Assembly: GCF_020171525.1 (NCBI RefSeq)
Contig: NZ_JAIVAI010000005.1
Location: 1-64,000, forward strand
Direction of reading: 5' to 3'
From: Halobacillus yeomjeoni
GTDB taxonomy: Bacteria; Bacillota; Bacilli; Bacillales; Halobacillaceae
Length of the DNA: 64,000 bases
Each line of letters opens with the position of its first letter. Position 1 is the stretch's first letter. Below the pieces are notes generated by a model. The model was given only the letters and a program-made list of their open reading frames with translations, was not told where the DNA came from and did no database searches. Shown here one piece after another: positions 24,339 through 45,270 of this stretch. The position numbers and the translations under genes are program-made.

Positions 24339-24721
24339 GGCTCTGTTAAAGTCTGTTGTTGATATTTTAAACGATTACTAAATAGTCCCCGTCAGAGATT
24401 AGGTGTTCGTTCCTTTATTTACTCAGAGCATGGGATGGCAGGGAAAACAGTACGCTTTCCGCGAGGGACGCTTGAGCCTCATCGAACTTCGTTCTCCGGG
24501 GTCTCACCTTGTTCCTTTTCCCGAAGGAGTCTACCTGTTTTCCCTACCATCCCGTTCGTTGTTGGTGTAACGGATTTCGGTTGTGATCTTTCTAACTCTT
24601 CTACTTTGAAGAGGCGGCCTTTTAGAATGTATAAGGCTGACCTCAGTTGATGGTGACAAGCGGCTATCTCACTAAAACCGGCATCTTTTTACATAAGTCT
24701 TGAAATGATGCTATAACAGCC
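24339..24721 (+). repeat. TIR-bounded palindromic repeat, element 1
   Basis: The left terminal repeat starts GGCTCTGTTAAAG at 24339 and continues GTTGTTGATATT. At 24432-24553 lies a 122-bp GC-rich imperfect palindrome (GGGATGGCAGGGAAAACAG ... TACCATCCC). Read on the minus strand it carries the AGACTCC..CGGGAAAAGGAA and CGCGGAAAGC blocks also found in element 2. The right end is decayed; CTATAACAGCC at 24711-24721 may be the degenerate right terminal repeat. There is no coding capacity. It fills the gap between the subtilase and the SDR gene. Confidence 0.7.
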
Positions 24722-24724
24722 AGA

Positions 24725-25447
24725 TTAAAAAGGATTTGTCGCCCATTGCAAGGATTGTTTGATGAAGATTCTCTGATTCAATTTCAGCAACGATACCATG
24801 TATTCGGCAAGGTCTTCGGGCTGCATGAACTTCTCTTTGTCATTGTTATCCATTTGACTTCCAAATGCCAGCTCCGTAGCGACTAAACTTGGGTTGAGGG
24901 TACTCACCCGTATATTGTTTCTTCGAACTTCCTGCATCAAAGCTTCCGTCATTCCTTGGACAGCAAACTTTGAAGCGCTGTAAGCAGAGGAGCCGGCTGT
25001 CGCTTTCAATCCGTTGCTGGAAGAAATATTGATGATGTCCCCTTGGTCTTTTTCAATCATATGGGGAAGCACAGCTCGTGTAACGTGATAAGTCCCATAC
25101 ACATTAACTTCAAATGTCTTCTTCCATTCTTCAGGGGCTGCATCCAGTAGCTGTCCTTTTGATCCGATTCCAGCATTATTGATTAAAATATCTGCAGGAC
25201 CTAGTTCTGCTTTCATATTTTCAATCGCTTGTTCCACCTCATTCAAAGAAGAAATATCCGCAGGTGCAATACTTGTTTTCACCCCGAGAGCTTCAGCTTC
25301 TTCAGCGACTTTTTTCAGATCATCTTCCGTCCTGGCCAGCAACCCGAGATGAACCCCTTCTTTGGCTAATTCAAGTGCTGTAGCTTTTCCTATCCCTTTT
25401 CCTGCGCCGGTGATATAAGCGATCTTTCCTCTGATGGACTGTCCCAT
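24725..25447 (-). CDS. SDR family oxidoreductase (3-ketoacyl-ACP reductase-like)
   Basis: A 240-aa classical short-chain dehydrogenase. The NADP-binding motif TGAGKGIG is at residues 14-21. The structural NNAG and the catalytic Ser/Tyr/Lys (ISSSNG, then YSASK) are present. Arg39 in LLARTEDD suggests NADPH preference. It resembles FabG-like reductases found outside fatty-acid clusters (FabG paralogues). The substrate is unknown. The ATG has an AAAGGATG-like site. It is monocistronic and divergent from a nucleotidyltransferase gene. Confidence 0.88.
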   Translation of the reverse strand: MGQSIRGKIAYITGAGKGIGKATALELAKEGVHLGLLARTEDDLKKVAEEAEALGVKTSIAPADISSLNEVEQAIENMKAELGPADILINNAGIGSKGQLLDAAPEEWKKTFEVNVYGTYHVTRAVLPHMIEKDQGDIINISSSNGLKATAGSSAYSASKFAVQGMTEALMQEVRRNNIRVSTLNPSLVATELAFGSQMDNNDKEKFMQPEDLAEYMVSLLKLNQRIFIKQSLQWATNPF

Positions 25448-25529
25448 GTTGAATCATCCTTTCAATGATTGATCTTTTAATCAGTGTAAATTTACCAACC
25501 ATACGAAGCAAACAATAGACTTGTGGGAA

Positions 25530-25545
25530 TGAAAAAGCGTTTTCA
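25530..25545. promoter_or_regulatory. Palindrome TGAAAA-N4-TTTTCA between divergent genes
   Basis: A perfect 6-bp inverted repeat around AGCG in the SDR/nucleotidyltransferase intergenic gap. It resembles a CcpA cre site but is two bases too long. It is an operator candidate of unknown regulator. Confidence 0.35.
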
Positions 25546-25617
25546 GTTTGTGGTAAGATTGAATCTCACAACGTTGAGTTTATTTATCTATCTCATACTG
25601 TAATGAGGAGTGATGAG

Positions 25618-26337
25618 GTGTCTAAGCGAAAAAAATTGCCACCTGTCGATGCTGCAACTGAATTTGTAAAGAAGCACCACCCGGATTGTCAGGCGGCGCT
25701 TTTAGCAGGTAGTGTAATACGAAGAGAAAGTACCGAGACATCGGACCTTGACATAGTCATCTTTGATGAGCGGTTTAAGACCTCGTATAGAGAGTCTCTA
25801 GTAGAATTCGGCTGGCCGATAGAAGTGTTCGTACATAACTCAACCTCGTATACTAAATTTTTCAATGAAGATAAGGAGCGTGCCCGCCCGTCAATGCCGC
25901 GAATGGTAATGGAAGGTAAAATCCTGAAAGGGGAGTCATTCTTAGCGCCAATAAAAAAAGAAGCGGAAGAACTGATAAAAGAAGGACCGAAGAGATGGTC
26001 TGAAGAAGAAATAAAAATGAAAAGATACTTCATAACGGATGCCCTGGATGATTTTATAGGCTGTAAAAACAGAGCTGAAGGGTTATTTATAGCCAGTTCT
26101 TTAATGTCACTTGCATGTGAATTCGTCTTACGTACGAACAACCAATGGGTCGGATCTTCTAAATGGATGATGCGTACTTTGAAAGAATATGATTCAAGAT
26201 TTGCTAATCATTTCATCCAGACATTTGAAAGTTATTACAAACTGAATGATAAAGAAAAAATCATCACATTAGTGGATCGAGTGTTAGAACCTTATGGTGG
26301 TCGGTTATTCGATGGTTTTTCTATAGGAAAAGAATGA
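25618..26337 (+). CDS. Nucleotidyltransferase-domain protein
   Basis: A 239-aa protein with the polymerase-beta nucleotidyltransferase motif LLAGSVIRRESTETSDLDIV. The GS pair and the D-x-D (LDIVIFD) would bind Mg-NTP. The C-terminal helical part resembles minor aminoglycoside nucleotidyltransferase-type proteins. Substrate is unknown, and antibiotic modification should not be assumed. I prefer the GTG at 25618, which has a GAGGAG site seven bases upstream. An ATG at 25603 lacks one. Its stop overlaps the start of the next gene by four bases, so the two are co-translated. Confidence 0.72.
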   Translation: MSKRKKLPPVDAATEFVKKHHPDCQAALLAGSVIRRESTETSDLDIVIFDERFKTSYRESLVEFGWPIEVFVHNSTSYTKFFNEDKERARPSMPRMVMEGKILKGESFLAPIKKEAEELIKEGPKRWSEEEIKMKRYFITDALDDFIGCKNRAEGLFIASSLMSLACEFVLRTNNQWVGSSKWMMRTLKEYDSRFANHFIQTFESYYKLNDKEKIITLVDRVLEPYGGRLFDGFSIGKE

Positions 26338-26924
26338 TTCCGGGGGTGGGGGTAAAAGTGAAAAGAATCATGGTCGTCGGTATTTCTGCAGGAGTAGGAA
26401 AGTCCACTTTTGCAAAAGAACTGGGGGAATTGTTGAACATTGATGTTTACCATTTGGACCGCTTCTTTTGGAAACCAGGGTGGAATCAAGCTTCTTTAGA
26501 AGAATTTTCTCAAAGACAAAAAGAAGTTGCCGTAGAAGAAAATTGGATCATAGAAGGGAATTATAGAACGACTATTGATATACGAATCCGACGTGCAGAT
26601 ACCCTTATCTACTTGGAACTTCCTTTGCTGACTTGTTTATATCGAGTCTTCAAACGCTGGTGGAATAATAGAGGAGGGACACGCTGGGATCTTGGGGAAG
26701 GGTGTGAAGAAAAGTTAGACTTTGACTTTTTAAAATTTATCATCACGACTTATTACCCGAGAAAGAAAAAGATGCGGAAACTCATGGACGAATTTCAAGA
26801 AGGAGAATCTGAAAGAAAAGTGATTGTTTTGAAAGATAAGAAAGAGATACATAGCTTTTTGGAAAGGGTTCGATTGCAGAGTGATGACGAAGAGTATGCA
26901 GGGAATGAGGTTCGGTCAAAATGA
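26334..26924 (+). CDS. P-loop NTPase, DNA topology modulation (FlaR/AAA_17)-like
   Basis: A 196-aa small kinase-like protein. The Walker A motif is GISAGVGKSTFAKEL. It continues DVYHLDRFFWKPGW, the HLD(x)2(F/Y)W pattern of the topology-modulation/FlaR family, then WIIEGNYRTT. It resembles shikimate and adenylate kinases; the substrate is unknown. The ATG overlaps the previous stop by four bases and has AGGAAAAGA ahead of it. A GTG at 26358 behind GGGGGTGGGGG is an alternative start. Confidence 0.75.
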   Translation: MIPGVGVKVKRIMVVGISAGVGKSTFAKELGELLNIDVYHLDRFFWKPGWNQASLEEFSQRQKEVAVEENWIIEGNYRTTIDIRIRRADTLIYLELPLLTCLYRVFKRWWNNRGGTRWDLGEGCEEKLDFDFLKFIITTYYPRKKKMRKLMDEFQEGESERKVIVLKDKKEIHSFLERVRLQSDDEEYAGNEVRSK

Positions 26925-26981
26925 AAAGCACAAGTTGTTTTTTTAGAGTTCTTACGCTTCATGAATTATAATGGATATATA

Positions 26982-26999
26982 ATGTGAAATAGTTCACAA
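26982..26999 (+). promoter_or_regulatory. Rex operator ahead of cydDC
   Basis: ATGTGAAATAGTTCACAA differs in only one base from the consensus TTGTGAA-N4-TTCACAA. It overlaps a TATAAT at 26978-26983 and sits 31 bp before cydD. The redox-sensing repressor Rex would release it when NADH/NAD rises under low oxygen. Confidence 0.85.
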
Positions 27000-27030
27000 T
27001 TGATCTTGGATACAAGGAGTTTTTATAGAG

Positions 27031-28761
27031 ATGAAGCACCTCAGCAAAATAGCTTTTGAAGAGAAGAAGAAAATTTGGATATTAGTGCTTACTTCTGTAT
27101 TCATCGCACTGACGATTGTCGGTCAAGCCTACTTTTTTGTAGCAGTCGTCGATCGAATCTTTCTGCAGGGGGGATCATTCGAAAGCGTCCTCCCACTATT
27201 GGCAGGATTACTGCTCGTTTTAATGGGAAGGTCACTGTTCACATGGCTGAATGGTCACACGGGAGTTAAGTTAGCTTCTCATGCGAAACAGCATTTCCGA
27301 AAAAGATTGATTCGTAAATATGCCGAAAATCCCGTTTTATCTTCCTTGAAGGGCCAATCCGGACGTAAAGTAAGTGTCCTTATGGATGCTGTGGATGAAG
27401 TCGATGGTTACTACAGCCGTTATATACCGCAAATGATTCAAACAGCTATTATTCCTATTATTATCCTGGTGGTCGTGTTTACACAGCACATCTATTCCGG
27501 GTTGATCATGATTGTTACGGCCCCATTCATCCCATTCTTCATGGCAATTGTAGGGGTAATGACAAAAAAGAAATCAGAAGAGCAAATGGAACAGTTGTCG
27601 GCTTTTTCCGGGAAGTTTTTAGATACGTTGCAAGGGCTTCTGACATTGAAGTTGTTCGGTCGTTCAAAACGACAGAAAGACGACATAGAATCGAGTAGTA
27701 TAGGTTTTCGTGATGCTACGATGGAAGTCCTTAAAGTCGCTTTTATTTCCTCCTTGATGCTCGAGTTCATTTCTATGTTAAGCATCGGAATCATCGCATT
27801 GGAAATCGCTATTCGACTGGTCGTTTATGAAAGTATTGGTTTTTTCCCGGCATTTTTCATCTTGATATTGGCCCCTGAATTTTATTTGACTCTAAAAGAG
27901 TTCGGCAGTGCTTTTCATACGGGGCGCGGAAGTAGTGGGGCCGCAAATCAACTGATGGAAGAGTTGGAAGGTGACGCCAATAAGGTGGAGTGGGGGGAAG
28001 CATTAATAGAAAATAAAGAAGCTCCTCCACAAATCAACCTGGACAAGGTCAGATTCAGCTATGGAAATAAGTTTGCTATCAAAAGCATCACCGCTTCTAT
28101 TCCACCGTATTCTCAAGCAGCTATCATTGGGCGAAGTGGTGCAGGAAAGTCTACGTTGCTTCATCTGATAGCTGGGATCATCAAGCCGGGGGAAGGGAAG
28201 ATTGAGGTGCAGGGAAGAAACTTATTCTCTTACCATGAAAAAGAATGGTTCGATCAAATCGGGTATATTTCTCAAGATCCGTATATCTTTTCAGGTACAA
28301 TCGCTGACAATATAGCTATTGGGGCAACGGTTACCTATACAGACGAAGAGATTGAACGAGCCGCAGAAAAAGCCGGCCTGGCTTCGTTGATCGATACATT
28401 TGAAGAGGGTATTCATACGTTTGTAGGTGAAGGAGGAAGAGGATTGTCAGGAGGGGAAAAACAAAGACTGGCAATTGCGAGAGTGTTCTTGAAAAATCCT
28501 TCTGTCATCTTATTCGACGAACCTACCACAGGGCTTGATTTAAAAACGGAACAAGTTTTACAAGATTCCTTGGAAAAGTTATCTGAAAGCGCAACAATCA
28601 TCACAGTAGCTCACCGATTGCACACGATCAAGAAAGCCGATCGTATCTTCTTAATTGATAAAGGAGAACTGATCGCTTCTGGAACTCATGAGGAATTGTT
28701 GAAGCAAGCCCAGGAATATAGGGATATGGTGAACGTGCAGCAAGGAGGCAATTCAGCATGA
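27031..28761 (+). CDS. cydD: Heterodimeric ABC exporter subunit CydD
   Basis: A 576-aa ABC half-transporter: six N-terminal transmembrane helices (to about residue 310), then an ATPase domain. That domain has Walker A GRSGAGKSTLLH, Q-loop ISQDPYIFSG, signature LSGGEKQR, Walker B VILFDEPT and switch histidine TVAHR. With CydC it exports glutathione/cysteine-type thiols or heme, which assembly of cytochrome bd requires. The start has an AAGGAG site. It overlaps cydC by four bases. A Rex box lies just upstream. cydA and cydB lie 32 kb away at the window end, unlike the single cydABCD operon of B. subtilis. Confidence 0.93.
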   Translation: MKHLSKIAFEEKKKIWILVLTSVFIALTIVGQAYFFVAVVDRIFLQGGSFESVLPLLAGLLLVLMGRSLFTWLNGHTGVKLASHAKQHFRKRLIRKYAENPVLSSLKGQSGRKVSVLMDAVDEVDGYYSRYIPQMIQTAIIPIIILVVVFTQHIYSGLIMIVTAPFIPFFMAIVGVMTKKKSEEQMEQLSAFSGKFLDTLQGLLTLKLFGRSKRQKDDIESSSIGFRDATMEVLKVAFISSLMLEFISMLSIGIIALEIAIRLVVYESIGFFPAFFILILAPEFYLTLKEFGSAFHTGRGSSGAANQLMEELEGDANKVEWGEALIENKEAPPQINLDKVRFSYGNKFAIKSITASIPPYSQAAIIGRSGAGKSTLLHLIAGIIKPGEGKIEVQGRNLFSYHEKEWFDQIGYISQDPYIFSGTIADNIAIGATVTYTDEEIERAAEKAGLASLIDTFEEGIHTFVGEGGRGLSGGEKQRLAIARVFLKNPSVILFDEPTTGLDLKTEQVLQDSLEKLSESATIITVAHRLHTIKKADRIFLIDKGELIASGTHEELLKQAQEYRDMVNVQQGGNSA

Positions 28762-30467
28762 AAGAATTGAAAGAAGTCATAAAGATCGTTCTACAGGAAA
28801 AAAAGGACGTATGGTTATCTGTTTTGTTCGGTTTCTTAGCTGGAATTTCTGCTGTAGGATTATTTGCTTCCAGTGGATATCTGATTTCGCGCGCAGCGCT
28901 TCTCCCGCCTTTGTACGCTTTGACGGTATTGATTGCATTCCTGAAACTGTTTGGCTTCATACGTGCGCTGGGAAGGTATGCAGAGCGTTACTATTCCCAC
29001 AGAGCTACATTTACGATGCTGAGCAAGATCCGTGTCACTTTTTATGAAAGGTTGGAACCTTACGCAACAAAGGTTCTTCATAAGTATCGGAGCGGGGATC
29101 TGCTTTCAAGAATCGTAGGAGATGTGGAAAGTCTGCAGAACTTCTTTCTGAGAGTCTTCTACCCACCCATCGTCATGATTGTCATTTTTCTATCAACCAT
29201 TGCTTTTACTACGATTTTCTCTGTTTCTGTCGCTCTGATTTTGGTCATAGGGTTGATTTTGACAGGTTTTCTTATCCCCTTATGGTTCTCTTATCGTCAA
29301 AGGAAGGTCAAGCGGATGATCAGGGAATCACGTGGGTCATTATCTACAGAAGCGGCAGAGTTTTTCTATGGATTTAGAGATTTGAAGATCTACCAACAGG
29401 TGGAACAGAAGCAATCCGTTTTGGAAGAGGCTTCCGATACCTATGTCAGAGAACAGGAGGGTGAGGGGAAACAACTGGTTTACAATCACTCTGTAAATAC
29501 AATGATCACTCTGATGGTTTCCTGGCTTGTACTTGCAGCAGGGGCATTTCTTGTGAGTACCGGTCAATTGAACGGACTGTTTTTAGCCATGCTGGTCATG
29601 ATCTCTCTTACCGTGTTTGAAAATGCAACACCGATGGCCGTGCTTCCAGGTCACTTGGAGGAAAACAAGCAGGCATCGAAGCGGTTGTTTTCTATAACAG
29701 AGGAAAAAGAAATAGAGAGCAGGGAGAGAGTCCAGATCCATCAGGCACCTGGCATCACGTTGGAGAATGTCTCCTATACCTATCCGGGGGAAGAACGCTC
29801 TGCTTTAAAGGGTATTGACCTTCAAATCCCTAAAGGATCGAAGACAGCCATCATAGGAAGCAGCGGCTCAGGGAAATCCACCCTGTTTCAATTGCTGCTG
29901 CAGGCTCTTAGAGCGGATGAAGGAGAAGTGTGGTTCGATGATATTGCCGGCAGTTTGACGGAACCTGAGAGTATTTGGGAGCAAAGCCGTGTCGTACTTC
30001 AGAAAAATCATTTCTTTTACGGATCCATTCGAGACAACCTGAAAATTGCCAAAGAAGAAGCATCTGACGAAATGTTGAACACGATCTTACAAAAAGTGGG
30101 GTTGGATGCGTTTGCCTTGGAAGGAGAAGTCTTAGAAAAAGGAGAGAATCTCTCAGGAGGTGAAAAGCAGAGGCTTGCAATCGCGAGAGCCATGCTGAAA
30201 AACGGGTCTTTATGGATGCTGGATGAGCCGACTTCTTCTCTCGATGCAGTGACGGAAAAGGGTATTTACGATGAGATATTCAATCTGGCACAAAAAGACA
30301 CTTTAGTACTCATCAGTCACCGGTTGACTGGGTTGGAAAAAATGGACCAGATCGTAGTCGTAGATGAAGGGAAAATAGTTGAATCGGGTACTTTTGAACA
30401 ATTAATGGAGAAGCAAGGGTATTTTTATGAAATGAAACAAATCGAACAAAGTGTATTCAGCACGTGA
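28758..30467 (+). CDS. cydC: Heterodimeric ABC exporter subunit CydC
   Basis: A 569-aa partner of CydD. Six transmembrane helices include the CydC-type segment GFLAGISAVGLFASSGYLIS and then YAERYYSHRATFTML. The ATPase domain has Walker A GSSGSGKSTLFQ, signature LSGGEKQR, Walker B LWMLDEPTSSLD and LISHRLTGL. The start codon overlaps the end of cydD (ATGA), with AGGAGG ahead. The pair is needed for a functional bd oxidase. Confidence 0.93.
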   Translation: MKELKEVIKIVLQEKKDVWLSVLFGFLAGISAVGLFASSGYLISRAALLPPLYALTVLIAFLKLFGFIRALGRYAERYYSHRATFTMLSKIRVTFYERLEPYATKVLHKYRSGDLLSRIVGDVESLQNFFLRVFYPPIVMIVIFLSTIAFTTIFSVSVALILVIGLILTGFLIPLWFSYRQRKVKRMIRESRGSLSTEAAEFFYGFRDLKIYQQVEQKQSVLEEASDTYVREQEGEGKQLVYNHSVNTMITLMVSWLVLAAGAFLVSTGQLNGLFLAMLVMISLTVFENATPMAVLPGHLEENKQASKRLFSITEEKEIESRERVQIHQAPGITLENVSYTYPGEERSALKGIDLQIPKGSKTAIIGSSGSGKSTLFQLLLQALRADEGEVWFDDIAGSLTEPESIWEQSRVVLQKNHFFYGSIRDNLKIAKEEASDEMLNTILQKVGLDAFALEGEVLEKGENLSGGEKQRLAIARAMLKNGSLWMLDEPTSSLDAVTEKGIYDEIFNLAQKDTLVLISHRLTGLEKMDQIVVVDEGKIVESGTFEQLMEKQGYFYEMKQIEQSVFST

Positions 30468-30505
30468 ATAAAAACACCCCTCGAAGCTTTGAGAGCCTGG
30501 AGGGG
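30468..30505 (-). terminator. Terminator of the Tyr/Pro-rich protein gene (minus strand)
   Basis: On the minus strand the stem CCCCTC/GAGGGG encloses a partly paired loop and is followed by TGTTTTTATT. It lies in the convergent gap with cydC. Confidence 0.55.
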
Positions 30506-30517
30506 ACGCAATATCCA

Positions 30518-30895
30518 TCAGTAATAGTAAGGATATGGATATGGGTATGGATAATAAGGGTATGGAGTCAAGTATGGATAAAGAGCCAGGGCTGTCAAAG
30601 CTGCTAACGGTAAGACCCTGCGTCGGAATCGACGTGCTCTTCTGCGGCGTCCATATCCACCATACCCGCCATAACCATATTGTCGGTGCTCTGAAGTTTC
30701 CCCATTTTCATCCACCATGACATCTTCACTGATTAAGATCGTCACTTTGTCCTCTTTAACATCAATAATGATTCCATCTACAGAACTTCCATCTTTCAGT
30801 TGAACCATGACATGATAGTCCTTGTACTTATTGCAATTACCATGGGAGGGATTCATATACCCATTTTGTTCATGCATCATACGTTCGTCAGTCAT
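30518..30895 (-). CDS. Hypothetical protein with Sm/SH3-like core and Arg-rich, Pro-Tyr tail
   Basis: A 125-aa protein in three parts. A short N-terminus (MTDERMMHEQNG) comes first. A compact beta-barrel-like core follows (about residues 22-58), whose YHVMVQLKDGSSVDGIIIDV and KVTILISEDV read like an Sm or small SH3-like fold. A basic stretch (YGGYGRRRRARRFRRR) then leads to a tail of Pro-Tyr repeats ending in YYY. Gly/Tyr/Arg-rich tails are common in spore-coat proteins, so a coat or nucleic-acid-binding role is possible but not shown. The ATG at 30895 follows AAGGAGGTGG. An upstream TTG lies before that site. Confidence 0.65.
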   Translation of the reverse strand: MTDERMMHEQNGYMNPSHGNCNKYKDYHVMVQLKDGSSVDGIIIDVKEDKVTILISEDVMVDENGETSEHRQYGYGGYGGYGRRRRARRFRRRVLPLAALTALALYPYLTPYPYYPYPYPYPYYY

Positions 30896-31026
30896 CGATC
30901 GCCACCTCCTTACCAACCATGATATTCACCCAAGCCTCATAAGTTGCTAAAAATTTTTCACACATTCAGATTCATAGGCTTATCCGGTAATCTTTAGTAA
31001 ACTGGAAATAACACTAAGGAGAGGTG

Positions 31027-31980: not shown

Positions 31981-32036
31981 GCTTACTTTGAACCTATCCC
32001 TGCCCTTCAAGAGAATAACAAGTAGGAGAGAAAAGT

Positions 32037-36663: not shown

Positions 36664-36685
36664 AAAGAGAACTCCTGACTATCTT

Positions 36686-36726
36686 ATCAAAAAACATCGT
36701 TTTATGATGTTTTTTGATTTTTTTTT
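36686..36726 (+). terminator. Terminator after the small membrane protein gene
   Basis: The stem ATCAAAAAACATC/GATGTTTTTTGAT is followed by TTTTTTTT. Confidence 0.8.
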
Positions 36727-36953: not shown

Positions 36954-38447
36954 ATGATGATATCTTTTAACAACTTAGGACAAATCAATATAAAGAGAAT
37001 CTACGGCCCTCAAAAACAAGAGGTCGGAAAGCTCTCCTTTCACTCTAAACGGGTGGAGGCGGACTCTGCCTACTTCAGTATCCGAGGGGTAAATTTTAAT
37101 GGAGATGATTATATTGAAGAAGCCATACTTTCCGGTGCCAATACAGTCTTTTCCTCTGATCGTGATCTGATTGAGAAATTATCGACCGTTTATCCTCATT
37201 GTACATTTCTCTTGGTCGGAAATGTCAGAGAATCGATGGCTGCATTTGCAAAGTTATACTTTGACAAACCTGATGAAAAGCTGAAAACGATCGGTGTTAC
37301 AGGAACGAACGGAAAAACAACGGTTACCGCATATGTCCGTTCTCTTTTGTCTTTACTGGGGATGCCGACAGGGTCGATAGGCACTACTGGAATATGGTCT
37401 TCTGAAAGGAAATTGGATTATAAAAAAAGCACACCGACAACACCTGAAGCGCTGGACCTTCATCAGATTTTTTCAGATTTGGTCAACTTGGATGATGAAG
37501 CGGTGGCCATGGAAGTATCTTCAATCGCTTTAGATCAGCATCGTGTAGACGGTATTTTGTTTGATGTAGGGATTCATACGAACTTTTCAGAAGAGCATTT
37601 GGAATATCATAAAACGATCGATCATTATAAAGAGTGCAAATTGAGGCTGTTTCAACAGTCGGACAAAAAAGTCGTCAATCTGGATGATGCAGGAATCGGG
37701 GCAGACTTAAAAGCCAAGTGTAAAGGATCTATGCTCACCTACAGCATCGAATCCCATCCAGAAGCCGATTTGAGAGCAGAAAACATTGAAGTGATGGAGG
37801 AAGGATCGATTTTTGATTTGTGGTATAAGGGCAGTGCGTACCCTATTTATGTTCCCGTATATGGAACTTACAATGTAGCTAATGTTCTGTCTGCGGTTGG
37901 AGCTGCTCTTCATCTTGGATTTTCAATGCAGGATATCTTGTGCGTACTGCCTAGTCTGCAAGGCCCGGTGGGACGTTTTCAAGTGATGAAGCTGCCTCAA
38001 AACCAAAAAGTCATTCTTGATTATGCTCATACACCAGTAGCTTTGAACCGATTGGTGGAAGAAGTGAAAAAGCTGAAATACAGAAGATTGATTGTCATGA
38101 TTGCTGGAATTGGTATAAGAGATTTTAATAAAATGCCGAAAATGGCAGCTGAGATTGAAGGGAAAGCCGATGAAGTGGTAGTGACGGTAGACCACCCAGG
38201 GTACCATGATCCGAAAGTCATTGTTGAGCAGGTCATGACAGGCTTTAAAAATCCCGATAAAGGCAATATCCATACAACGCTGACCAGAAAAGAAGGGGTC
38301 GAACGTGCATTGAACATTGGAGGGCCGGACGATATCATACTGTTGACCAGCGGATGTATCAACAATGCCCAAATCATCCGTGGTGAGGAAGTCCCTCATT
38401 CAGATGAAGCGATTATTGAACGTTTTTATCCTCCGGTAGCTCAATGA
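36954..38447 (+). CDS. Divergent stand-alone Mur ligase (MurE paralogue)
   Basis: A 497-aa ATP-dependent ligase with the three MurE domains. An N-terminal UDP-binding domain (about 1-105) comes first. A central ATPase follows, with P-loop GVTGTNGKTT at 114-123 and the carbamylated-lysine region HYKECKLRLF. The C-terminal domain contains DYAHTPVAL. The motif that recognises meso-diaminopimelate in MurE (DNPR) reads DHPG here (413-416), and the later GKGHE signature reads SGCINN. So it is unlikely to add DAP and may use another amino acid or acceptor. It is monocistronic, away from any division-wall cluster. Annotation as plain murE would be misleading. Confidence 0.82.
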   Translation: MMISFNNLGQINIKRIYGPQKQEVGKLSFHSKRVEADSAYFSIRGVNFNGDDYIEEAILSGANTVFSSDRDLIEKLSTVYPHCTFLLVGNVRESMAAFAKLYFDKPDEKLKTIGVTGTNGKTTVTAYVRSLLSLLGMPTGSIGTTGIWSSERKLDYKKSTPTTPEALDLHQIFSDLVNLDDEAVAMEVSSIALDQHRVDGILFDVGIHTNFSEEHLEYHKTIDHYKECKLRLFQQSDKKVVNLDDAGIGADLKAKCKGSMLTYSIESHPEADLRAENIEVMEEGSIFDLWYKGSAYPIYVPVYGTYNVANVLSAVGAALHLGFSMQDILCVLPSLQGPVGRFQVMKLPQNQKVILDYAHTPVALNRLVEEVKKLKYRRLIVMIAGIGIRDFNKMPKMAAEIEGKADEVVVTVDHPGYHDPKVIVEQVMTGFKNPDKGNIHTTLTRKEGVERALNIGGPDDIILLTSGCINNAQIIRGEEVPHSDEAIIERFYPPVAQ

Positions 38448-38454
38448 AAGATAT

Positions 38455-38485
38455 AAGTACAGGCCTGGGGCCTGTACTTTTTTTA
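38455..38485 (+). terminator. Terminator of the Mur ligase gene
   Basis: The stem AAGTACAGGCC/GGCCTGTACTT is followed by TTTTTATTT. Repeat element 3 abuts the T-tract. Confidence 0.9.
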
Positions 38486-38488
38486 TTT

Positions 38489-38580
38489 GGCTTTGTTTGA
38501 GCATTCTAATAAAAAATGAACCACGACAAGAGGGAACGTAAAAAAACGTATAAATATCAGCAATAGTCTTTAACAGAGAC
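38489..38580 (+). repeat. TIR repeat, element 3 (short, decayed)
   Basis: The left end GGCTTTGTTTGAG (degenerate) starts immediately after TTTTATTT. The right end, read on the minus strand, is GTCTCTGTTAAAG followed by TTGCTGATATT. Only 92 bp remain and the GC-rich core is lost. It probably derives from the same family as elements 1 and 2. Confidence 0.6.
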
Positions 38581-38702
38581 ATTTAATTAAACGTTTGTTC
38601 AGGGAGCATAACGGTTGAATATTGTTGCAAGGGTTGATTAAATAATACATGTCATTATATAATAAATAAGTTTAATAATGCTGATATAGGAGGTGTTTGG
38701 GG

Positions 38703-39599
38703 ATGCAAGTCATTGATGTAAGTAAAACGATCCCTGCTGTTGAAAAGGGAACAGTTCTTGTAATAGGGGTGATGGACAGTGTCCATATAGGAGAGCGGTA
38801 TGTGCTGGAAAAAGCTCAAGAACTTTCTTCTGACGATGAGGAAATAGCGGTATATGGAATTTCTTCAGCCTCTGCTCCAATGGTGACGATTGAGAATGAT
38901 CGGAACTTTCTTCTGAAGAGCTATGGAGTAAAACGTTACTATCAAGTTCCTGCACAGGAGCATGCCCAAGCAACTCCTGATCATTTCATCAGGAACCATT
39001 ATGAAGCTTTAAATATTACACACATCGTGGTCTCAGAAACGGTTCAAAACGCCGCCTATTCAGTGGAAACCTTGAGAAAATGGTCACAGAAGATGGATGT
39101 TCCAATGACTGTGATTTCAGATCTCAAGGTTCACGGGGATAATGTTACCGAAACCAGAATTCTTCCCCTTATTGAACAGGGTCGTATGGAAGCGGCAAAG
39201 TCTTTGCTGGGGAGGCCTTTTACACTGAATGGTGAGGTGGTAAAAGGGCAGCAGCTCGGGAGAGAACTAGGTTTTCCTACTTTGAATTTAGGCGGTATCG
39301 ACAGCTATGTAAAGGTGAAGCCGGCTGTATATATAGGTTTAATAAAAGTTGAAGGAGAGCCCGATACTTTTTATTATGCGTTGATCAACGCAGGGTACCG
39401 ACCGACCGTGAACGGAGATTCTTATAAAGTAGAGGCCTATTTACTCGACTTTAATGGGGATCTCTATGGGAAACAGGTTTCTGTACAGTTTTTACGACGG
39501 TTAAGAGATGAAGAAAATTTTGATGGCTTGGATGCTTTGGTCGATCAAATGAAAAAAGATGAAGAGATGACGCGGGATATTTTAGGACTAGAAAAGTGA
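38703..39599 (+). CDS. RibF-like riboflavin kinase/FAD synthetase paralogue
   Basis: A 298-aa protein with the RibF two-domain plan. The C-terminal riboflavin kinase domain (about 165-298) looks intact. It has GRPFTLNGEVVKGQQLGRELGFPTLNL, then AGYRPTVNGD and VEAYLLDFNGDLYGK. In the N-terminal FMN adenylyltransferase domain, the usual GxFDGVHxGH motif reads GVMDSVHIGER, so the last catalytic His and the FDG are lost. It may act only as a flavokinase or a regulator. The ATG at 38703 is set by AGGAGG at 38688. YuzB and DUF1189-like genes follow closely. Confidence 0.8.
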   Translation: MQVIDVSKTIPAVEKGTVLVIGVMDSVHIGERYVLEKAQELSSDDEEIAVYGISSASAPMVTIENDRNFLLKSYGVKRYYQVPAQEHAQATPDHFIRNHYEALNITHIVVSETVQNAAYSVETLRKWSQKMDVPMTVISDLKVHGDNVTETRILPLIEQGRMEAAKSLLGRPFTLNGEVVKGQQLGRELGFPTLNLGGIDSYVKVKPAVYIGLIKVEGEPDTFYYALINAGYRPTVNGDSYKVEAYLLDFNGDLYGKQVSVQFLRRLRDEENFDGLDALVDQMKKDEEMTRDILGLEK

Positions 39600-39622
39600 C
39601 ACCTTAGAAAGGAGTATTCACC

Positions 39623-39871
39623 ATGGGAATCGTTGTAGTAGAGGTTTGTGATGGCAACTTGATTACGGAGATGGATATTGAGAGCATCATCGAGTCCGAA
39701 TACCCTGAAGTAGCCGTGCTCATGAACGAATGCCTTTCATTTTGCGGAATGTGTGCCGTCCGTCCATATGCCATTGTGAACGGTTCGCGAGTATTCGGCA
39801 AAACACCAGAAGAAGCTCTGGAGAAAATCCGTAAGAAGATAGAAGAAGAACTTGCTGTATATGCAGATTAA
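39623..39871 (+). CDS. yuzB: YuzB family protein (DUF1450)
   Basis: An 82-aa protein of the DUF1450/YuzB family. The conserved core MNECLSFCGMCAVRPYAIVNG carries three cysteines in a C-x3-C-x2-C arrangement, suggesting metal or redox chemistry in a thioredoxin-like fold. Function is unknown in B. subtilis. It lies 23 bp after the RibF-like gene with an AAAGGAG site and 14 bp before the next gene, so it is probably in one operon. Confidence 0.88.
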   Translation: MGIVVVEVCDGNLITEMDIESIIESEYPEVAVLMNECLSFCGMCAVRPYAIVNGSRVFGKTPEEALEKIRKKIEEELAVYAD

Positions 39872-39885
39872 GGTAGGAGATTATT

Positions 39886-40380
39886 GTGGGGATGATTCAA
39901 TCATTTTGGAATAGTGTACGACTCCCGAAAAAAGAAGCAATGTTTCAGTTGAATCGTAATGGCATGACGCATACGATTTCGTATTTATTCATATTGTTAG
40001 CTCTATTATTCATGCCTGATATGATTTACTCTGTGTTGTATCTGGATTCTAGTTTAACTGAAGTTTCCCGTGGACAGTATTTGGTCCAAATGTTTGTATT
40101 TTATCCATTATTCATCATTTTTCTGATATTGATCGGAGTATCGGTTTTAGCTGGAGTGTGTCTATTGATGCGGAAAGCTATGGGGAGAAAACTGACTTAC
40201 CAGCAGTTGTGGAAAATGACCGCATACGCTTCGACTTTGCCGTTGATTTTGAGTGTGTTGCTAAAAACGCTGGCTGTCCCGGACGGTGTTAGTGCTCTAT
40301 TGTTTTTTACTGTATTTTTTTACATGATGTATCAGATGATTGCAATTTACCCTAAAACACCCACCAAACGGTCGTCTTAA
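39886..40380 (+). CDS. DUF1189-like membrane protein
   Basis: A 164-aa integral membrane protein. It begins QSFWNSVRLPKKEAMFQLNR, the amphipathic entry helix typical of DUF1189 proteins. Four transmembrane helices follow, near residues 30-48, 65-90, 110-128 and 130-148. It is shorter than the DUF1189 proteins I recall, because the outer domain between helices 1 and 2 is small. The GTG at 39886 has a TAGGAG site; an ATG at 39892 is possible. It is the last gene of a likely ribF-like/yuzB operon. Confidence 0.6.
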   Translation: MGMIQSFWNSVRLPKKEAMFQLNRNGMTHTISYLFILLALLFMPDMIYSVLYLDSSLTEVSRGQYLVQMFVFYPLFIIFLILIGVSVLAGVCLLMRKAMGRKLTYQQLWKMTAYASTLPLILSVLLKTLAVPDGVSALLFFTVFFYMMYQMIAIYPKTPTKRSS

Positions 40381-40410
40381 TGTGACAACCCCTTGGTGGG
40401 TGTTTTCTAC
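40354..40410 (+). terminator. Bidirectional terminator overlapping gene ends
   Basis: The stem AAAACACCCACCAA/TTGGTGGGTGTTTT has a long loop. The left arm is inside the last codons of the DUF1189-like gene. The T- and A-rich arms allow termination in both directions. Confidence 0.65.
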
Positions 40411-40724
40411 TTTTCCTGCTTTGACCTTCGGTATCCAGCATTTATAGCTTCGATTTCTGTTGAAAACAACTCATATTCTTGAACGTCTTCGTAGTAACGG
40501 CTTCCTGGTACATGATAGATTCGTTCTCCCTCATTTGTTATATGTGCTTTGACAGGAAGCTCATTCAACACGTTTCCATTAAGCTTTTTCTTCGGAGTAA
40601 CTTTGTCCAATGACACGCGGACATTTAATTTAACGCCCTTTTTTTTGATAAGTATAGAGCGGAAGTAATAGAATGCGCCCAAAGTGATACTTGCGTAAGT
40701 AACCTTTTTCTTCAAGTTACTCAT
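40407..40724 (-). CDS. Sunset-domain membrane-anchored protein
   Basis: A 105-aa protein with a short N-terminal hydrophobic segment (VTYASITLGAFYYFRSILI, about residues 8-26). A C-terminal sunset domain (ITNEGERIYHVPGSRYYEDV then ELFSTEIEAINAGYRRSK) follows. This is a small fold related to the Ada metal-binding domain, often found at the end of secreted nucleases and wall proteins. Here it stands alone behind a membrane anchor. Function is unknown. The ATG has a GGGGGGAACG site, and a single-gene unit is likely. Confidence 0.72.
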   Translation of the reverse strand: MSNLKKKVTYASITLGAFYYFRSILIKKKGVKLNVRVSLDKVTPKKKLNGNVLNELPVKAHITNEGERIYHVPGSRYYEDVQEYELFSTEIEAINAGYRRSKQEK

Positions 40725-40846
40725 ACCGTTCCCCCCTTGTGATATCGTATGCTTGGCCGTTAAAAAAGTTCTTGTCTCAAGGGGGGATGGACACCAGTGA
40801 AACCTCCTGATTTTTGGAACGTCTAATTGAGTAGAGGTGATGAAAA

Positions 40847-41263
40847 ATGAAACGTTGGATGGGCGTTTTACTCATTGTCATAATGGTCGGTTGTACAGAA
40901 AGTCCGGATATAGGGGAAGGCTCGAAAAATCGTACTGGAACGGGGGTTTCAAATATGGAGGCACCATCTGACAATATCGAGAAGTTGGATGATTTTATTC
41001 AAAAGTATCACAACGGAGTTCAGGCAGAGGTGCGAATCATTCAATCAAGCGTTGAAGGAGACCCTGTGTATACAGATTTGACCTACACAGGAGAAAACAT
41101 CCTATATAAACATGATACGAGGAAAGTGAAAGTGGGAGAGGGGCAAATCATTGAACGAACTTGTGAAAAAATTGAAAAGGTAAAAAAAGATGAATCACTC
41201 GTGTATGTGTTAAAGTGTGGATTTTACGGATCCATTGAAATATATGAAACCACAATAGAGTAA
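40847..41263 (+). CDS. DUF4362 lipoprotein
   Basis: A 138-aa lipoprotein. The signal MKRWMGVLLIVIMVGC gives a lipidated cysteine at residue 16. The mature domain matches DUF4362: EKLDDFIQKYHNGVQAEVRI, SSVEGDPVYTDLTYTGENI and a cysteine pair in ERTCEKIEKV and VLKCGFYG that may form a disulfide. Many Bacillus genomes carry members; function is unknown. The ATG has a GAGGTGATG site. It is divergent from the sunset-domain gene. Confidence 0.8.
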   Translation: MKRWMGVLLIVIMVGCTESPDIGEGSKNRTGTGVSNMEAPSDNIEKLDDFIQKYHNGVQAEVRIIQSSVEGDPVYTDLTYTGENILYKHDTRKVKVGEGQIIERTCEKIEKVKKDESLVYVLKCGFYGSIEIYETTIE

Positions 41264-41353
41264 ACAGGTTTGTTCAATGAGCAGATAGTAAGCGGTGCGA
41301 AACCCCATATGCTACACTACGATTGTGAATATGCAATGAAAGGGGAAGATGCA

Positions 41354-42178
41354 ATGCAAACGATGATGCTGCATAATAAAGTGGAGATGCCGCAGTTAGG
41401 GTTCGGCGTTTGGCAAGTTGAAGAAGGGGAAGCGGTACCGGCTGTAACCAAAGCGATCGAAACGGGTTACCGTTCCATTGATACAGCGATGATTTATGGA
41501 AATGAAGAACAAGTAGGCGAAGCGATTCGTGAAAGTGAAATAAAACGCGAAGAGCTGTTCATAACTACAAAGGTTTGGAACTCAGACCAAGGATTTGAAA
41601 ATACAATACAGGCGTTGGAAACAAGCTTGGATAAGCTTGGGTTAGACTATGTCGACCTTTATTTGATCCACTGGCCGACACCGGAATTCGATGAATATGT
41701 TGAAACCTACAAAGCATTGGAACAACTCCAAAAAGATGGAAAGGTGAAAGCGATCGGTGTGTGCAACTTCGATGTCGATCACTTGCAGCGCCTGCTTGAT
41801 GAATGTGAGGTCAAACCTGCAGTGAACCAAGTAGAATGCCACCCCTATCTTGCTCAAAACGAACTGAAAGATTTCTGTCGTCAGCACGGCATTTATGTAG
41901 AAGCATGGAGCCCGCTCATGCAGGGGGGAGAAGTCCTTCAGAATGATACCATTCAATCTATTGCAAAGAAGCATGGCAAAACTCCGGCTCAAGTAGTCAT
42001 TAGATGGCATCTTCAAAATGACACTATTGTCATCCCTAAATCTGTAACACCTTCAAGAATTGAAGAGAACTTCAACGTCTTCGATTTTGAATTGACACAT
42101 GAAGACATGGATGCGATCAATCAATTGGATCGTGAAGAGCGTAAAGGACCCAAGCCTTCTGAAATGAATGTTAGATAA
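41354..42178 (+). CDS. Aldo/keto reductase
   Basis: A 274-aa NADPH-dependent reductase with a TIM-barrel fold. The catalytic tetrad is in place: Asp and Tyr in DTAMIYGNE, Lys in TTKVW and His in LIHWP. The NADPH-binding C-terminal part shows VIPKSVTPSRIEENF. It resembles B. subtilis YvgN/YtbE, which reduce methylglyoxal and other aldehydes. The start at 41354 is set by GAAAGGGGAAG and by alignment (MQTMMLHNKVEMPQLGFGVW); an upstream extension is not conserved. A terminator follows. Confidence 0.9.
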   Translation: MQTMMLHNKVEMPQLGFGVWQVEEGEAVPAVTKAIETGYRSIDTAMIYGNEEQVGEAIRESEIKREELFITTKVWNSDQGFENTIQALETSLDKLGLDYVDLYLIHWPTPEFDEYVETYKALEQLQKDGKVKAIGVCNFDVDHLQRLLDECEVKPAVNQVECHPYLAQNELKDFCRQHGIYVEAWSPLMQGGEVLQNDTIQSIAKKHGKTPAQVVIRWHLQNDTIVIPKSVTPSRIEENFNVFDFELTHEDMDAINQLDREERKGPKPSEMNVR

Positions 42179-42187
42179 AGATATCCA

Positions 42188-42222
42188 AAAAGCTGTCGTG
42201 ATGATCACGGCAGCTTTTTTTA
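42188..42222 (+). terminator. Terminator of the aldo/keto reductase gene
   Basis: The stem AAAGCTGTCGTGAT/ATCACGGCAGCTTT is followed by a T-run. Confidence 0.88.
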
Positions 42223-42311
42223 TTGTAGTCTTTACTGAGCTCTCTCTGTCACTTTTAAAATATGTGGAATGGGGAAGATAGGTATATATCAATTTTTAAA
42301 GGAGATTCTTT

Positions 42312-43268
42312 ATGCAGATACGTTTCGGTTATGTTTCCCACGCCCTGTCTTTATGGGAAGCTACACCTGCCAAAACCCTTACTTATTCGAGATATAAAAA
42401 AATGTCACCCGAAGAGCGCATAGAAAAGTTAGAGTACATTACCCGCACAAATCTGCTTCATACCTTAAGGGCTCTACACTATAACATCGCTCATGAAATC
42501 AACTTGTACCGTTTTTCTTCTTCGCTCGTTCCTTTAGCCACACATGATGAAGTTGAATGGGATTATATCACCCCTTTTGAGGATTTATATAAAGAAATCG
42601 GCTCATTAGTCCAAAGGCATGAGATGAGGACAAGTTTTCACCCGAATCAGTTCACCCTATTTACAAGCGATAAGGACCATGTCACCCAAAACGCCATTCA
42701 GGATATGGAGTATCACTATGCTCTGCTGGAAGCGATGGGGTTACATGAAGAATCCCATATCAATTTACATGTGGGTGGGGCTTATGGGAACAAAGAAGAC
42801 GCCTTGAAGAGGTTTCATGAGAATTTGAAAACTCTGCCTGGACCAATCAAAGATCAAATGACGCTCGAAAATGATGATAAAACGTACACGACGAGTGAAA
42901 CGCTGGAGGTGTGTGAAAAGGAAAGCATTCCTATGATGTTTGATTATCATCATTTCATGGCCAATCACACAGAGGAAGAATCGTTAACGGATTTATTACC
43001 TCGGTTTTATAATACGTGGGAGAGGTTAGGGATGCCGCCCAAGATCCATATATCCTCTCCAAAATCTGAAAGTGAATTTAGAAGTCATGCTTCCTATGTA
43101 GATCCTGAATTCATAAAGCCTCTTCTAAAAGAGCTTAAGCGCTTTGATGTAGCGGTGGACTTCATGATTGAAGCGAAAGAGAAAGATCGAGCCCTTCTCC
43201 AATTGATTGATGATTTATCGAACATCAGAGGGTATAAGCGGGTTGGAGGAGCAACATTAAAAATTTAA
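42312..43268 (+). CDS. uvsE: UV DNA damage endonuclease UvsE
   Basis: A 318-aa TIM-barrel endonuclease that nicks 5' of UV photoproducts and starts an alternative excision repair. Family motifs: [20 protein letters not shown] at the N-terminus, FHPNQFTLF and HINLHVGG (metal-binding His), LENDDKTYT (Glu) and MFDYHHF. The length is typical for Bacillus UvsE. The ATG has a TAAAGGAG site. I see no LexA-type box just upstream. It is a single-gene unit. Confidence 0.93.
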
Positions 43269-43379
43269 CGTAAAGTGCTCGTAAATAATCTGAATATATT
43301 GAAAAATTTGTAATCAAGCTTACAGTTATTATGCCGTTGATTAGCTACAATAGAGACATAAAACAAAAAGGAGTGTGGC

Positions 43380-43814
43380 ATGATGACTGGTTCAGCAGCA
43401 AAAGCGTATCGGATTGGTATAATCGGAGGGATCATTGGTGGAGTCGTATTCGGTCTTTTTATGCAGATGCAGGGCATGTTGGGGATGGTCGCAAGCTTGG
43501 CAGGTAGTGAAAGCTTGTTTGTAGGATGGGTCGTGCATATGGTGATCAGCGTCATTTTCGGTTTATCATTCGCAGTTCTTACCTTTGTCATTCCTAATTT
43601 GTGGACACTTTCCCTCTTGTTCGGTATCGGAATATGGATCATCGGTCCATTGCTGATCATGCCTGCGATGATGGGGATGGGAACGAATCTGGCCAATGCT
43701 TTTACTCCTGATTTGTTGATGAGTTTAGTGACTCATATAGGTTTCTCTTTCATTGTTGGAGCTACATTCAAGGTTATGACCAGAAAGAAAGTTGCTGGAG
43801 CAAAAGCAGCATAA
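43380..43814 (+). CDS. Hypothetical four-helix membrane protein
   Basis: A 144-aa membrane protein with four predicted helices: IGIIGGIIGGVVFGLFMQM, VGWVVHMVISVIFGLSFAV, LWTLSLLFGIGIWIIGPLL and LVTHIGFSFIVGATFKVM. The composition is very rich in Gly and Met. No named family is certain. The ATG has an AAAGGAGTG site; the next codon is also ATG. A terminator follows. Confidence 0.75.
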   Translation: MMTGSAAKAYRIGIIGGIIGGVVFGLFMQMQGMLGMVASLAGSESLFVGWVVHMVISVIFGLSFAVLTFVIPNLWTLSLLFGIGIWIIGPLLIMPAMMGMGTNLANAFTPDLLMSLVTHIGFSFIVGATFKVMTRKKVAGAKAA

Positions 43815-43837
43815 GGGAATTATAAATATAAATTTAA

Positions 43838-43866
43838 AAAGTTGCTGATACATCAGCAACTTTTTT
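43838..43866 (+). terminator. Terminator after the four-helix membrane protein gene
   Basis: The stem AAGTTGCTGAT/ATCAGCAACTT is followed by six T. Confidence 0.85.
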
Positions 43867-43934
43867 GATGAAATCATAATCGTTCAATTTCATTTATTAA
43901 ATTTACTCTGTTGTTTATAATGTAGAAGAACACT

Positions 43935-44150
43935 TTATCCTTGATAAGTTAAAATATCCTTGCCTTTTACAACGGATTCGTTCGTTACAAGAACAGGGGT
44001 GTAGACTTCTCCGATATGTTCTTTAAGATTCCGTTGGGCCATGGGTGTATTTAATATGTTGACTTCTTCAAAAGGGATCTCCTCTTGAATCAAATGCTTT
44101 CTTGAACGTGCACAAACAGAACAGCCATGTATGGTGTAGAGAGTGTTCAT
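43935..44150 (-). CDS. Glutaredoxin-like protein
   Basis: A 71-aa thioredoxin-fold protein. The active-site motif is CSVC (residues 10-13) after the strand NTLYTIHG. The cis-Pro loop TPVLV and the terminal GKDILTY are as in NrdH/YruB-type glutaredoxins. It could reduce protein disulfides or deliver electrons; no partner is evident. The ATG has an AAAGGAGATCATC site. It is divergent from the Crp/Fnr regulator, with only 44 bp between starts. Confidence 0.85.
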   Translation of the reverse strand: MNTLYTIHGCSVCARSRKHLIQEEIPFEEVNILNTPMAQRNLKEHIGEVYTPVLVTNESVVKGKDILTYQG

Positions 44151-44194
44151 GAGATGATCTCCTTTTTATAATAATCTCTGAAGGGCGTGTAGGA

Positions 44195-44875
44195 ATGATG
44201 GACAAGTTATCCTTATTGTCTGAAATCAGTTTATTCGATGAATTGTCTAGAGACGAATTGATGATCATTGATGAAATGAGTGAAATGAGTCCCGTGAAAA
44301 AAGGTTCAATCATTTTATCTCCTGACCATCCGATCGAAGCGTTGTTCCTTTTGAAAAAAGGTCAGGTTCGGTTGTACCGGATGAATGAGCAAGGAAAGCA
44401 ATTTACTATGGATATTCTCGTTGATGGAAACATCTTCGGAGAAACGTCAACCGTTACGCTTACAGATGATCAAATGTACGCAGAAGCGATGACCGATACA
44501 TACATTTGTACACTGAGCCATAAAGATTTTGAGCAGTTCATTGAGAAAAATCCAAAAATCGCTTTGAAGTTGATTGATATTTTATCCTCAAGACTGAAAG
44601 ACTTTTACAGCTTGAGTGAAAAAATCGCTTTGAGTGATGTGAGACAGCGGTTGTTGTTTTTGCTGTTGATGTTAAGCGAGAAGACAGGACGGCGTAAAAA
44701 GAATTGGCAGACGATTGAAATGAAGCTTACGCATCAAGACTTAGCCAATATGATTGGTGCGACAAGGGAAACGACGAGTGCAGTCATGAGTCAGTTGAAA
44801 AAAGAAGGGTATTTAAGAAAAATACGTTATCTTGCTATTGATGCGGATAAGACGAAGGATCATCTTGGTGTATAA
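44195..44875 (+). CDS. Crp/Fnr-family transcriptional regulator
   Basis: A 226-aa regulator. The cyclic-nucleotide-binding-type beta roll spans residues 20-125 (PIEALFLLKKGQVRLYRMNE, DGNIFGETS). A long dimer helix follows, then a winged HTH (LTHQDLANMIGATRETTSAVMSQLKKEGYL). There are no N-terminal iron-sulfur cysteines, so it is not an oxygen-sensing Fnr. Effector and targets are unknown. The tandem ATGs at 44195 and 44198 are equally possible, behind a weak TAGGA site. The stop lies inside the terminator hairpin. Confidence 0.88.
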   Translation: MMDKLSLLSEISLFDELSRDELMIIDEMSEMSPVKKGSIILSPDHPIEALFLLKKGQVRLYRMNEQGKQFTMDILVDGNIFGETSTVTLTDDQMYAEAMTDTYICTLSHKDFEQFIEKNPKIALKLIDILSSRLKDFYSLSEKIALSDVRQRLLFLLLMLSEKTGRRKKNWQTIEMKLTHQDLANMIGATRETTSAVMSQLKKEGYLRKIRYLAIDADKTKDHLGV

Positions 44876-44899
44876 CAAAACCAAGGTGATTCTTTTTAT
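44859..44899 (+). terminator. Terminator of the Crp/Fnr gene, overlapping its stop
   Basis: The stem ATCATCTTGG/CCAAGGTGAT (one G-U) brackets the stop codon and is followed by TTCTTTTTATTT. Element 2 abuts the T-tract. Confidence 0.78.
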
Positions 44900-44901
44900 T
44901 T

Positions 44902-45270
44902 GGCTCTGTTAAAGTTTAGTGTTGATTTATTCGTTTTGAGACTTTTGTGAGTGAATAGTTGCTTTAACCATGCTTTACTTACATTTAAAAATTTTAATTT
45001 ACAAATTAGAACCGTTTAAATAGGATGTGGTACCTTTTTGGTTTTTAATCTTTTTACGAAAAAGATGATATCAAGAGATAATCATCGAAAGGGTCGTCGG
45101 GGAAGGGGGAGACTCCCGCGGGAGAAGGAAGCAGGCTAGATCCCACAGGGCTTTAGCCCGAGGAAGCTTGCCGGTTCCCCCGCAGGAAAGCAGACCCTTC
45201 CCCGACGACCCTGCACTGAATTCATTTTTTTATAAAACAGCGAATATCAACACCAGCCTTTAACAGAGCC
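44902..45270 (+). repeat. TIR-bounded palindromic repeat, element 2 (intact, 369 bp)
   Basis: The left end GGCTCTGTTAAAG and the right end CTTTAACAGAGCC are perfect 13-bp terminal repeats. Similarity extends to 22 of 25 bases. The exact 8-bp duplication TTTTATTT flanks both sides (44894-44901 and 45271-45278). A 121-bp GC-rich palindrome (GGGTCGTCGGGGAAGGGGG ... CCCCGACGACCC) lies at 45091-45211. There is no transposase ORF. It looks like a non-autonomous MITE-type element. Ends and duplication length resemble IS6-family elements. Confidence 0.8.

Follow-up and report, generated by a model that had tools for sequence, protein, structure and literature searches.

Among the closest described systems, and as far as the available portions of the cited accounts go, group IIC (class C) introns use intrinsic transcriptional terminators as their target sites (PMC4424553), TnGBS and related insertion sequences (ISs) insert 15–17 bases upstream of the −35 element of sigma-A promoters with conserved orientation (PMC3942029), IS1595 elements are over-represented between tandem genes in a large survey (PMC9208149), and QMITE2 of Coxiella burnetii as well as other intergenic miniature inverted-repeat transposable elements (MITEs) lie mainly in 3′ untranslated or A/T-rich intergenic DNA (PMC10969869). 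Here, we describe a family of IS1595-type MITEs in Halobacillus yeomjeoni, three members of which, termed elements 1–3, are found in a stretch of 64,000 nucleotides (the window; positions 1–64,000 of contig NZ_JAIVAI010000005.1), each directly behind an intrinsic terminator. Across this and other genomes, members of the family sit in a terminator T-tract about half the time, with placement at the level of single bases. In the open-licence literature, as far as its accessible text extends, we found no report of a terminator preference of IS1595 or its MITEs, and the titles and abstracts of that literature yielded neither insertion sequences at terminators nor MITEs in Halobacillus. The terminal inverted repeat (TIR) string retrieved only papers unrelated by their titles and abstracts, and the available part of PMC3281130 contains nothing on terminator insertion.

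An earlier note on this DNA had placed the start of all three elements exactly where the T-tract of a Rho-independent terminator ends, which is borne out by the coordinates as well as by the hairpin folds. All features described for the window are on the forward strand, and each of the three terminator hairpins follows a same-strand gene. Element 2 (44,902–45,270) is an intact 369-bp MITE with two exact 13-base TIR ends, abutting the terminator (44,855–44,901) of the gene at 44,195–44,875. The hairpin of this terminator (44,855–44,894; RNA fold −21.3 kcal/mol, z −6.3) overlaps the stop codon of this gene and is followed by a T-tract, within which lies the octamer TTTTATTT (44,894–44,901). As the same octamer is also present 3′ of the element (45,271–45,278), it constitutes a perfect 8-bp target-site duplication (TSD). 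TTTTATTT likewise precedes element 3, as the note had pointed out; in the case of element 2, this common octamer is the target that was duplicated. Internally (45,080–45,220), element 2 additionally folds into an imperfect, GC-rich hairpin of very high stability (−79.5 kcal/mol, z −7.2).

Element 1 (24,339–24,629) is a truncated copy of a 469-bp IS1595-type MITE with an exact left TIR, its first 291 bases aligning with the 469-bp family (to 24,629) at no more than 93% identity to full-length copies, while a right TIR was looked for and not found. It abuts the terminator (24,296–24,338) of the gene at 22,939–24,288, with a hairpin at 24,296–24,337, a T-rich run up to 24,338 and GGCTCTGTTAAAG starting at 24,339 (RNA fold of 24,289–24,338, −26.3 kcal/mol, z −7.5). 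Element 3 (38,489–38,580) comprises 92 bp with a degenerate left TIR (three mismatches in 13 positions) and a right TIR with a single mismatch, the right end including 27 bases 93% identical to family ends. The terminator of the upstream gene (36,954–38,447) occupies 38,455–38,488 and consists of a hairpin (38,455–38,479) followed by the T-tract TTTTTATTT, directly abutting the element (RNA fold −17.5 kcal/mol, z −4.9). The right flank reads ATTTAATT and the flanking octamers are alike at just five of eight positions; with ends decayed in this way, element 3 is the remnant of an old copy that has undergone an internal deletion. Rfam gave 12 matches in the window, of which none falls within the elements and none is an intron, and with the 8-bp target duplications present, a group IIC intron was rejected as an identity for these elements.

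Allowing at most one mismatch, the TIR GGCTCTGTTAAAG occurs at 120 places in the 3.27-Mb draft genome (G000), compared to zero for the reversed pattern. Of these places, 100 are listed, and the remaining 20 were covered only as far as the stretches taken around the listed ones included them; a TIR profile run on these stretches yielded 146 ends, and the shuffled control none. TSD matching resolved 96 pairs, 60 from this genome and 36 from others, with the 36 including three autonomous elements (L161, L164 and L170) that are also counted among the 24 autonomous elements introduced below, as well as two loci (L110 and L118) that look like one insertion in two genomes, both without a hairpin. The unpaired ends (43 own, 40 from other genomes) were left out of the choice models. 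The 60 own pairs span 104–1079 bp, 44 of them measuring 280–473 bp, and a single sequence family accounts for 48 pairs, many with lengths near 290, 370 or 469 bases. Perfect 8-bp TSDs flank 35 of the 60 own pairs and 21 of the 36 others. The elements of the window encode no transposase, and translation of ten stretches gave nine without a frame longer than 118 codons, the tenth (2000 bases) extending into host genes. Being short, TIR-flanked, free of a transposase and present in many copies with a duplicated target, these elements qualify as MITEs.

Two observations concern the same genome more broadly. A 1079-base unit (L069, 3438–4516; C2:10037–11115) with a perfect outer 8-bp duplication and an extra internal TIR end contains, by eye, a 118-residue lipoprotein-like frame, and may be a pair of MITEs that has picked up a gene of the host. 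Furthermore, contigs C3, C4, C6, C7 and C8 have ends inside or a few hundred bases from family elements, which probably broke the assembly there.

The identity of the family follows from its autonomous relatives. An extended-TIR scan of named genomes returned 20 loci from Halobacillus, Thalassobacillus, Virgibacillus, Sediminibacillus, Alteribacter, Metabacillus and others; at three of them, L161, L164 and L170, the element is long, its 8-bp duplication is perfect, and it contains transposase frames or pieces. L170, a 2038-bp element with the TSD AAAGAAAA on both sides, matches the IS1595 transposase model NF033547 at 208 bits and the larger transposase piece of L161 does so at 169 bits (cut-off 75 for both), with PF12762 above its cut-off in the two elements. 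A further 22 autonomous-type elements with TSDs alike at six or more of eight positions came from 30 loci of the same order, of which eight without a resolved pair were dropped, as was L316, near-identical to L315. Since these relatives share the ends and the 8-bp duplications and encode IS1595 transposases, the elements of the window are IS1595-family MITEs. No intact transposase was found in the searchable sequence of the draft genome (PF12762, zero matches; contigs C11–C15 read N), where the transposase trace consists of one fragment with stops (C1:1024966–1025157). An IS6 parent was rejected, as PF13610 (IS240-type) gave no match in this genome and was present in 9 of 44 family genomes, twice above the cut-off, with paired TIR cores at none of 15 loci; an ISL3 parent was likewise rejected (PF01610, zero matches in this genome). 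Within L170 (5758–7795, Metabacillus lacus), a GNAT acetyltransferase gene lies beside the IS1595 transposase. In Aquisalibacillus, L164 (4493–5829) is a non-autonomous element that may carry passengers: behind a piece resembling the N-terminus of a transposase lie two more short frames, of which the latter has no NCBIfam match.

The duplicated octamers provide a second link to IS1595. The symmetrised A/T content over the eight duplicated bases was 99, 97, 86, 86, 86, 86, 97 and 99% for the 60 sites of this genome, 99, 94, 89, 79, 79, 89, 94 and 99% for the 36 sites of other genomes, and 98, 98, 85, 81, 81, 85, 98 and 98% for the 24 autonomous elements. For ISEc69, an IS1595 element, the available part of the published experiment gives 100% A/T at positions 1, 2, 7 and 8 and 83–91% at positions 3–6 over 23 sites (PMC7835479). 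An A/T-rich 8-bp target with near-invariant A/T at positions 1, 2, 7 and 8 is thus the target of the IS1595 family. TTTTATTT or its complement forms at least one target copy in 7 of the 96 paired elements (L042, L047, L057, L059, element 2, L111 and L113).

We then assessed how frequently the paired copies adjoin a terminator, using a stacking-energy search of both flanks for hairpins of −8 kcal/mol or lower whose stem ends no more than 22 nt from the element. A strong hairpin was detected beside 30 of the 60 own pairs and 15 of the 36 pairs from other genomes, giving 45 of 96 in total, which is a lower bound, as the script misses some imperfect hairpins visible by eye. Among the 24 autonomous elements, nine have such a hairpin. 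For the 45 matches, the duplication starts 4 nt (median; quartiles 2 and 7) beyond the final G/C of the stem, with T in 77–93% at each of the first six bases past it. By gene context, hairpins were present at 11 of 15 sites between convergent genes, 34 of 70 between tandem genes and none of the ten between divergent genes, the one site at a stretch edge having none. The element lies on the downstream side of the terminator in 43 of the 45 matches, compared to a ratio of 2623:904 among alternative positions (binomial p = 2e-4, without sequence matching), whereas the two orientations of the element with respect to the terminator (14 to 6) did not differ significantly (p = 0.12).

Mapping the paired copies relative to terminators, along the lines the earlier note had proposed, therefore sustains a real preference for terminator T-tracts and disproves a rule for all copies, since the script detected no terminator at the other 51 of the 96 pairs. 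In one genome of another family (G027; L122 and L207–L216), a terminator was detected at none of the seven pairs, which are mostly about 180 bases long, and this weighs against an extra attraction. Of the six unpaired ends in G027, three adjoin a hairpin that reaches −8 kcal/mol. Compared to the rate of about one half across the genome, the window, with all three of its elements at a terminator, is a fortunate sample. At such a rate three of three would come up one time in eight, so that chance could in principle supply the window's pattern; the enrichment over matched controls across the genome (z = 5.0, see below) and its repetition in other genomes, however, make it very improbable that this pattern is a coincidence.

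A/T content does not fully account for the T-rich preference, an explanation the earlier note had named among those that could undo its claim: an excess was left in matched controls, in choice models, in the zone downstream of the stem and in the autonomous set. Intergenic octamers matched for the number of A/T and the number of T or A gave an expectation of 9.0 (standard deviation (sd) 2.6) terminator matches, compared to 26 of 50 observed, and when the match was instead on target score, flank A/T and T/A run, octamers drawn from element-free tandem and convergent regions gave 14.6 (sd 3.1), compared to 30 of 56 (z = 5.0). In a conditional choice model, where every position within each emptied intergenic region competes, a hairpin raised the odds of insertion with an odds ratio (OR) of 4.0 (p = 3.6e-5; this and the other p-values bearing on A/T content are from approximate likelihood-ratio tests relying on the gene calls and hairpin search of the present analysis). 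The effect was present in this genome (OR 3.7, p = 0.0014) and in the other genomes (OR 4.6, p = 0.006), persisted with flank GC, GC asymmetry and run length in the model (OR 3.2, p = 8e-4), and ranged from 3.3 to 4.4 over eight settings of the energy and gap limits. In 51 tandem regions whose site lies past the terminator stem of the upstream gene, a set from which three sites ahead of a stem were omitted, 32 insertions fell within 22 nt downstream of the stem, compared to 13.8 for uniform placement and 23.9 under the fitted sequence model (p = 0.001). The autonomous elements of other genera exhibited the same tendency, with 9 of 24 compared to 4.1 expected from sequence (p = 0.0016).

To judge the order of events, we turned to orthologous loci that lack the elements. 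At the position of element 3, a hairpin and T-run directly follow the orthologous gene in 18 of 21 loci of other genomes, one of the three misses (L269) matching only part of the gene, and no full TIR was seen by eye in the 150 bases examined at these loci. For element 1, two of three orthologous loci have the terminator. These comparisons of sequence suggest that the terminators precede the insertions. The loci orthologous to element 2 weigh against the reading that we favor below: a scored terminator within 110 nt was found at only 4 of 11, farther from the stop codon and never with the same spacing, and the nearest relative (88% identity) retains a comparable T-rich tail but no hairpin that scores. 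An association built into the element, in which the hairpin and T-run would be part of the mobile DNA or made by its insertion, could point to the strong GC-rich hairpin inside element 2. We consider it hardly credible, given that the terminator hairpins vary by site and lie outside the TIR, that the TIR-free loci carry a terminator at the position of element 3, and that about half of the copies are without one.

The distribution of the sites also bears the mark of selection. The octamer class alone would put 40.7 of 60 insertions in genes, whereas frames open over 110 or more codons are present at only 17 of the 96 emptied sites, and only 4 of 96 lie at least 50 codons from both frame ends. 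With about 4 of 96 sites well inside a reading frame, selection or avoidance must be strong, and selection surely contributes. This fits the view of the earlier note that terminators offer a safe landing site, as the terminator is kept, with 43 of 45 matches downstream of it, and few sites lie well inside a frame.

As a control for intergenic survival, we compared copies of IS256 within genomes of the same order (52 of 70 loci used, 47 resolved; 11 genic and 36 intergenic). A hairpin was found at 6 of the 36 intergenic and 3 of the 11 genic sites, the former close to the intergenic base rate of 18.7% in the Halobacillus stretches, which come from genomes different from the IS256 set, and significantly below the MITEs (Fisher p = 0.0014). 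Survival between genes is thus not enough by itself to give the terminator pattern; recognition of the hairpin is not thereby implied.

The strongest alternative is that A/T-rich octamer choice and purifying selection suffice, terminator T-tracts being simply the best octamers that survive, and several of our observations weigh on its side and against an extra attraction. Besides the deficit of sites inside frames, the hairpin OR dropped to 2.3 (p = 0.023) when the distances to gene 3′ and 5′ ends were added to the choice model. Octamers of the same region at least as A/T-rich as the target gave an expectation of 23.3 (sd 1.9), close to the 26 of 50 observed, in a test that separates T-tract from hairpin poorly, as many of the alternatives presumably overlap the same T-tract. 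The downstream bias was no longer clear after sequence matching (OR 3.6 versus 1.1, the latter with a standard error of 0.9 on the log scale). The IS256 control bears on selection and not on A/T content, as its targets differ, and its comparison with the autonomous IS1595 elements was not significant (p = 0.13). In the accessible text on ISEc69, the experimentally mapped IS1595 element inserted at AT-rich sites within E. coli genes (PMC7835479). Nor does age separate targeting from selection, as identity was alike in both classes: nearest-copy identity had medians of 90.9 for terminator copies and 91.4 for the others (p = 0.38), and of the six copies with at least 95% nearest-neighbor identity, presumably the youngest, one is a terminator match. 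Terminator matches make up 19 of the 35 perfect duplications and 11 of the 25 imperfect ones. What speaks against A/T choice and selection alone is the residual hairpin effect in this genome, in other genomes and in the autonomous elements, together with the low IS256 frequency; we regard it as a serious explanation that falls somewhat short of probable.

We lean, if only slightly, towards a combination of A/T-rich targeting, an extra pull toward terminators, and selection. In this combined model, a transposase supplied in trans would cut 8 bp apart in AT-rich duplex, a demand that the T-tracts of intrinsic terminators satisfy. Their use beyond what base composition predicts would then reflect an additional property of terminator sites, candidates being a T-tract that is bent, or that melts easily, next to its stable stem, and DNA that RNA polymerase has opened or supercoiled while terminating. 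Purifying selection would remove insertions in genes and promoters, the outcome being an element behind an intact terminator.

The start of the duplication, at a median of 4 nt past the stem, is near the point of transcript release, and the 43 of 45 downstream placements would favor a role of transcription over a symmetric DNA structure. The same bias is equally expected, however, from selection that keeps a gene joined to its terminator. A more specific proposal, that the IS1595 transpososome homes to transcription termination by following either RNA polymerase as it terminates or the stem-plus-T-tract DNA that the polymerase has opened, is offered tentatively and seems to us rather unlikely; the corollary that such guidance would place the element reproducibly within the T-tract, downstream of the intact terminator, is to be taken with the same reserve.

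Should insertion itself favor terminators, these elements would represent a DNA-transposon route to safe sites marked by the ends of transcription, which would help explain how 120 MITE ends could accumulate in a 3.3-Mb genome at so little apparent cost in genes. As dozens of its sites are mapped and relatives provide loci free of the element, the family offers a natural system for the roles of T-tracts, hairpins and RNA polymerase in transposon targeting.

Compared to known systems, ISEc69 and the MITEs agree in transposase family, in the A/T-rich 8-bp duplication and in the A/T at positions 1, 2, 7 and 8, and differ in the terminator bias seen here as opposed to the insertions in E. coli genes given for ISEc69 in the accessible part of PMC7835479. 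For QMITE2 and similar elements, a base-level tie to terminator T-tracts is not described in the available portion of PMC10969869. TnGBS, ISLre2 and ISKra4 (prokaryotic Mutator-like) resemble the Halobacillus elements as DDE transposons following a transcription signal, as far as the accessible accounts of them go; there the signal is a promoter and the orientation fixed, in contrast to a terminator and no significant orientation bias for the MITEs. Group IIC introns are retroelements, whereas the Halobacillus elements are derivatives of DDE transposons with TIRs and target duplications. If the preference indeed arises at insertion, the family would complement both the promoter-directed TnGBS and the terminator-directed group IIC introns, and would be the DNA-transposon counterpart of the latter.

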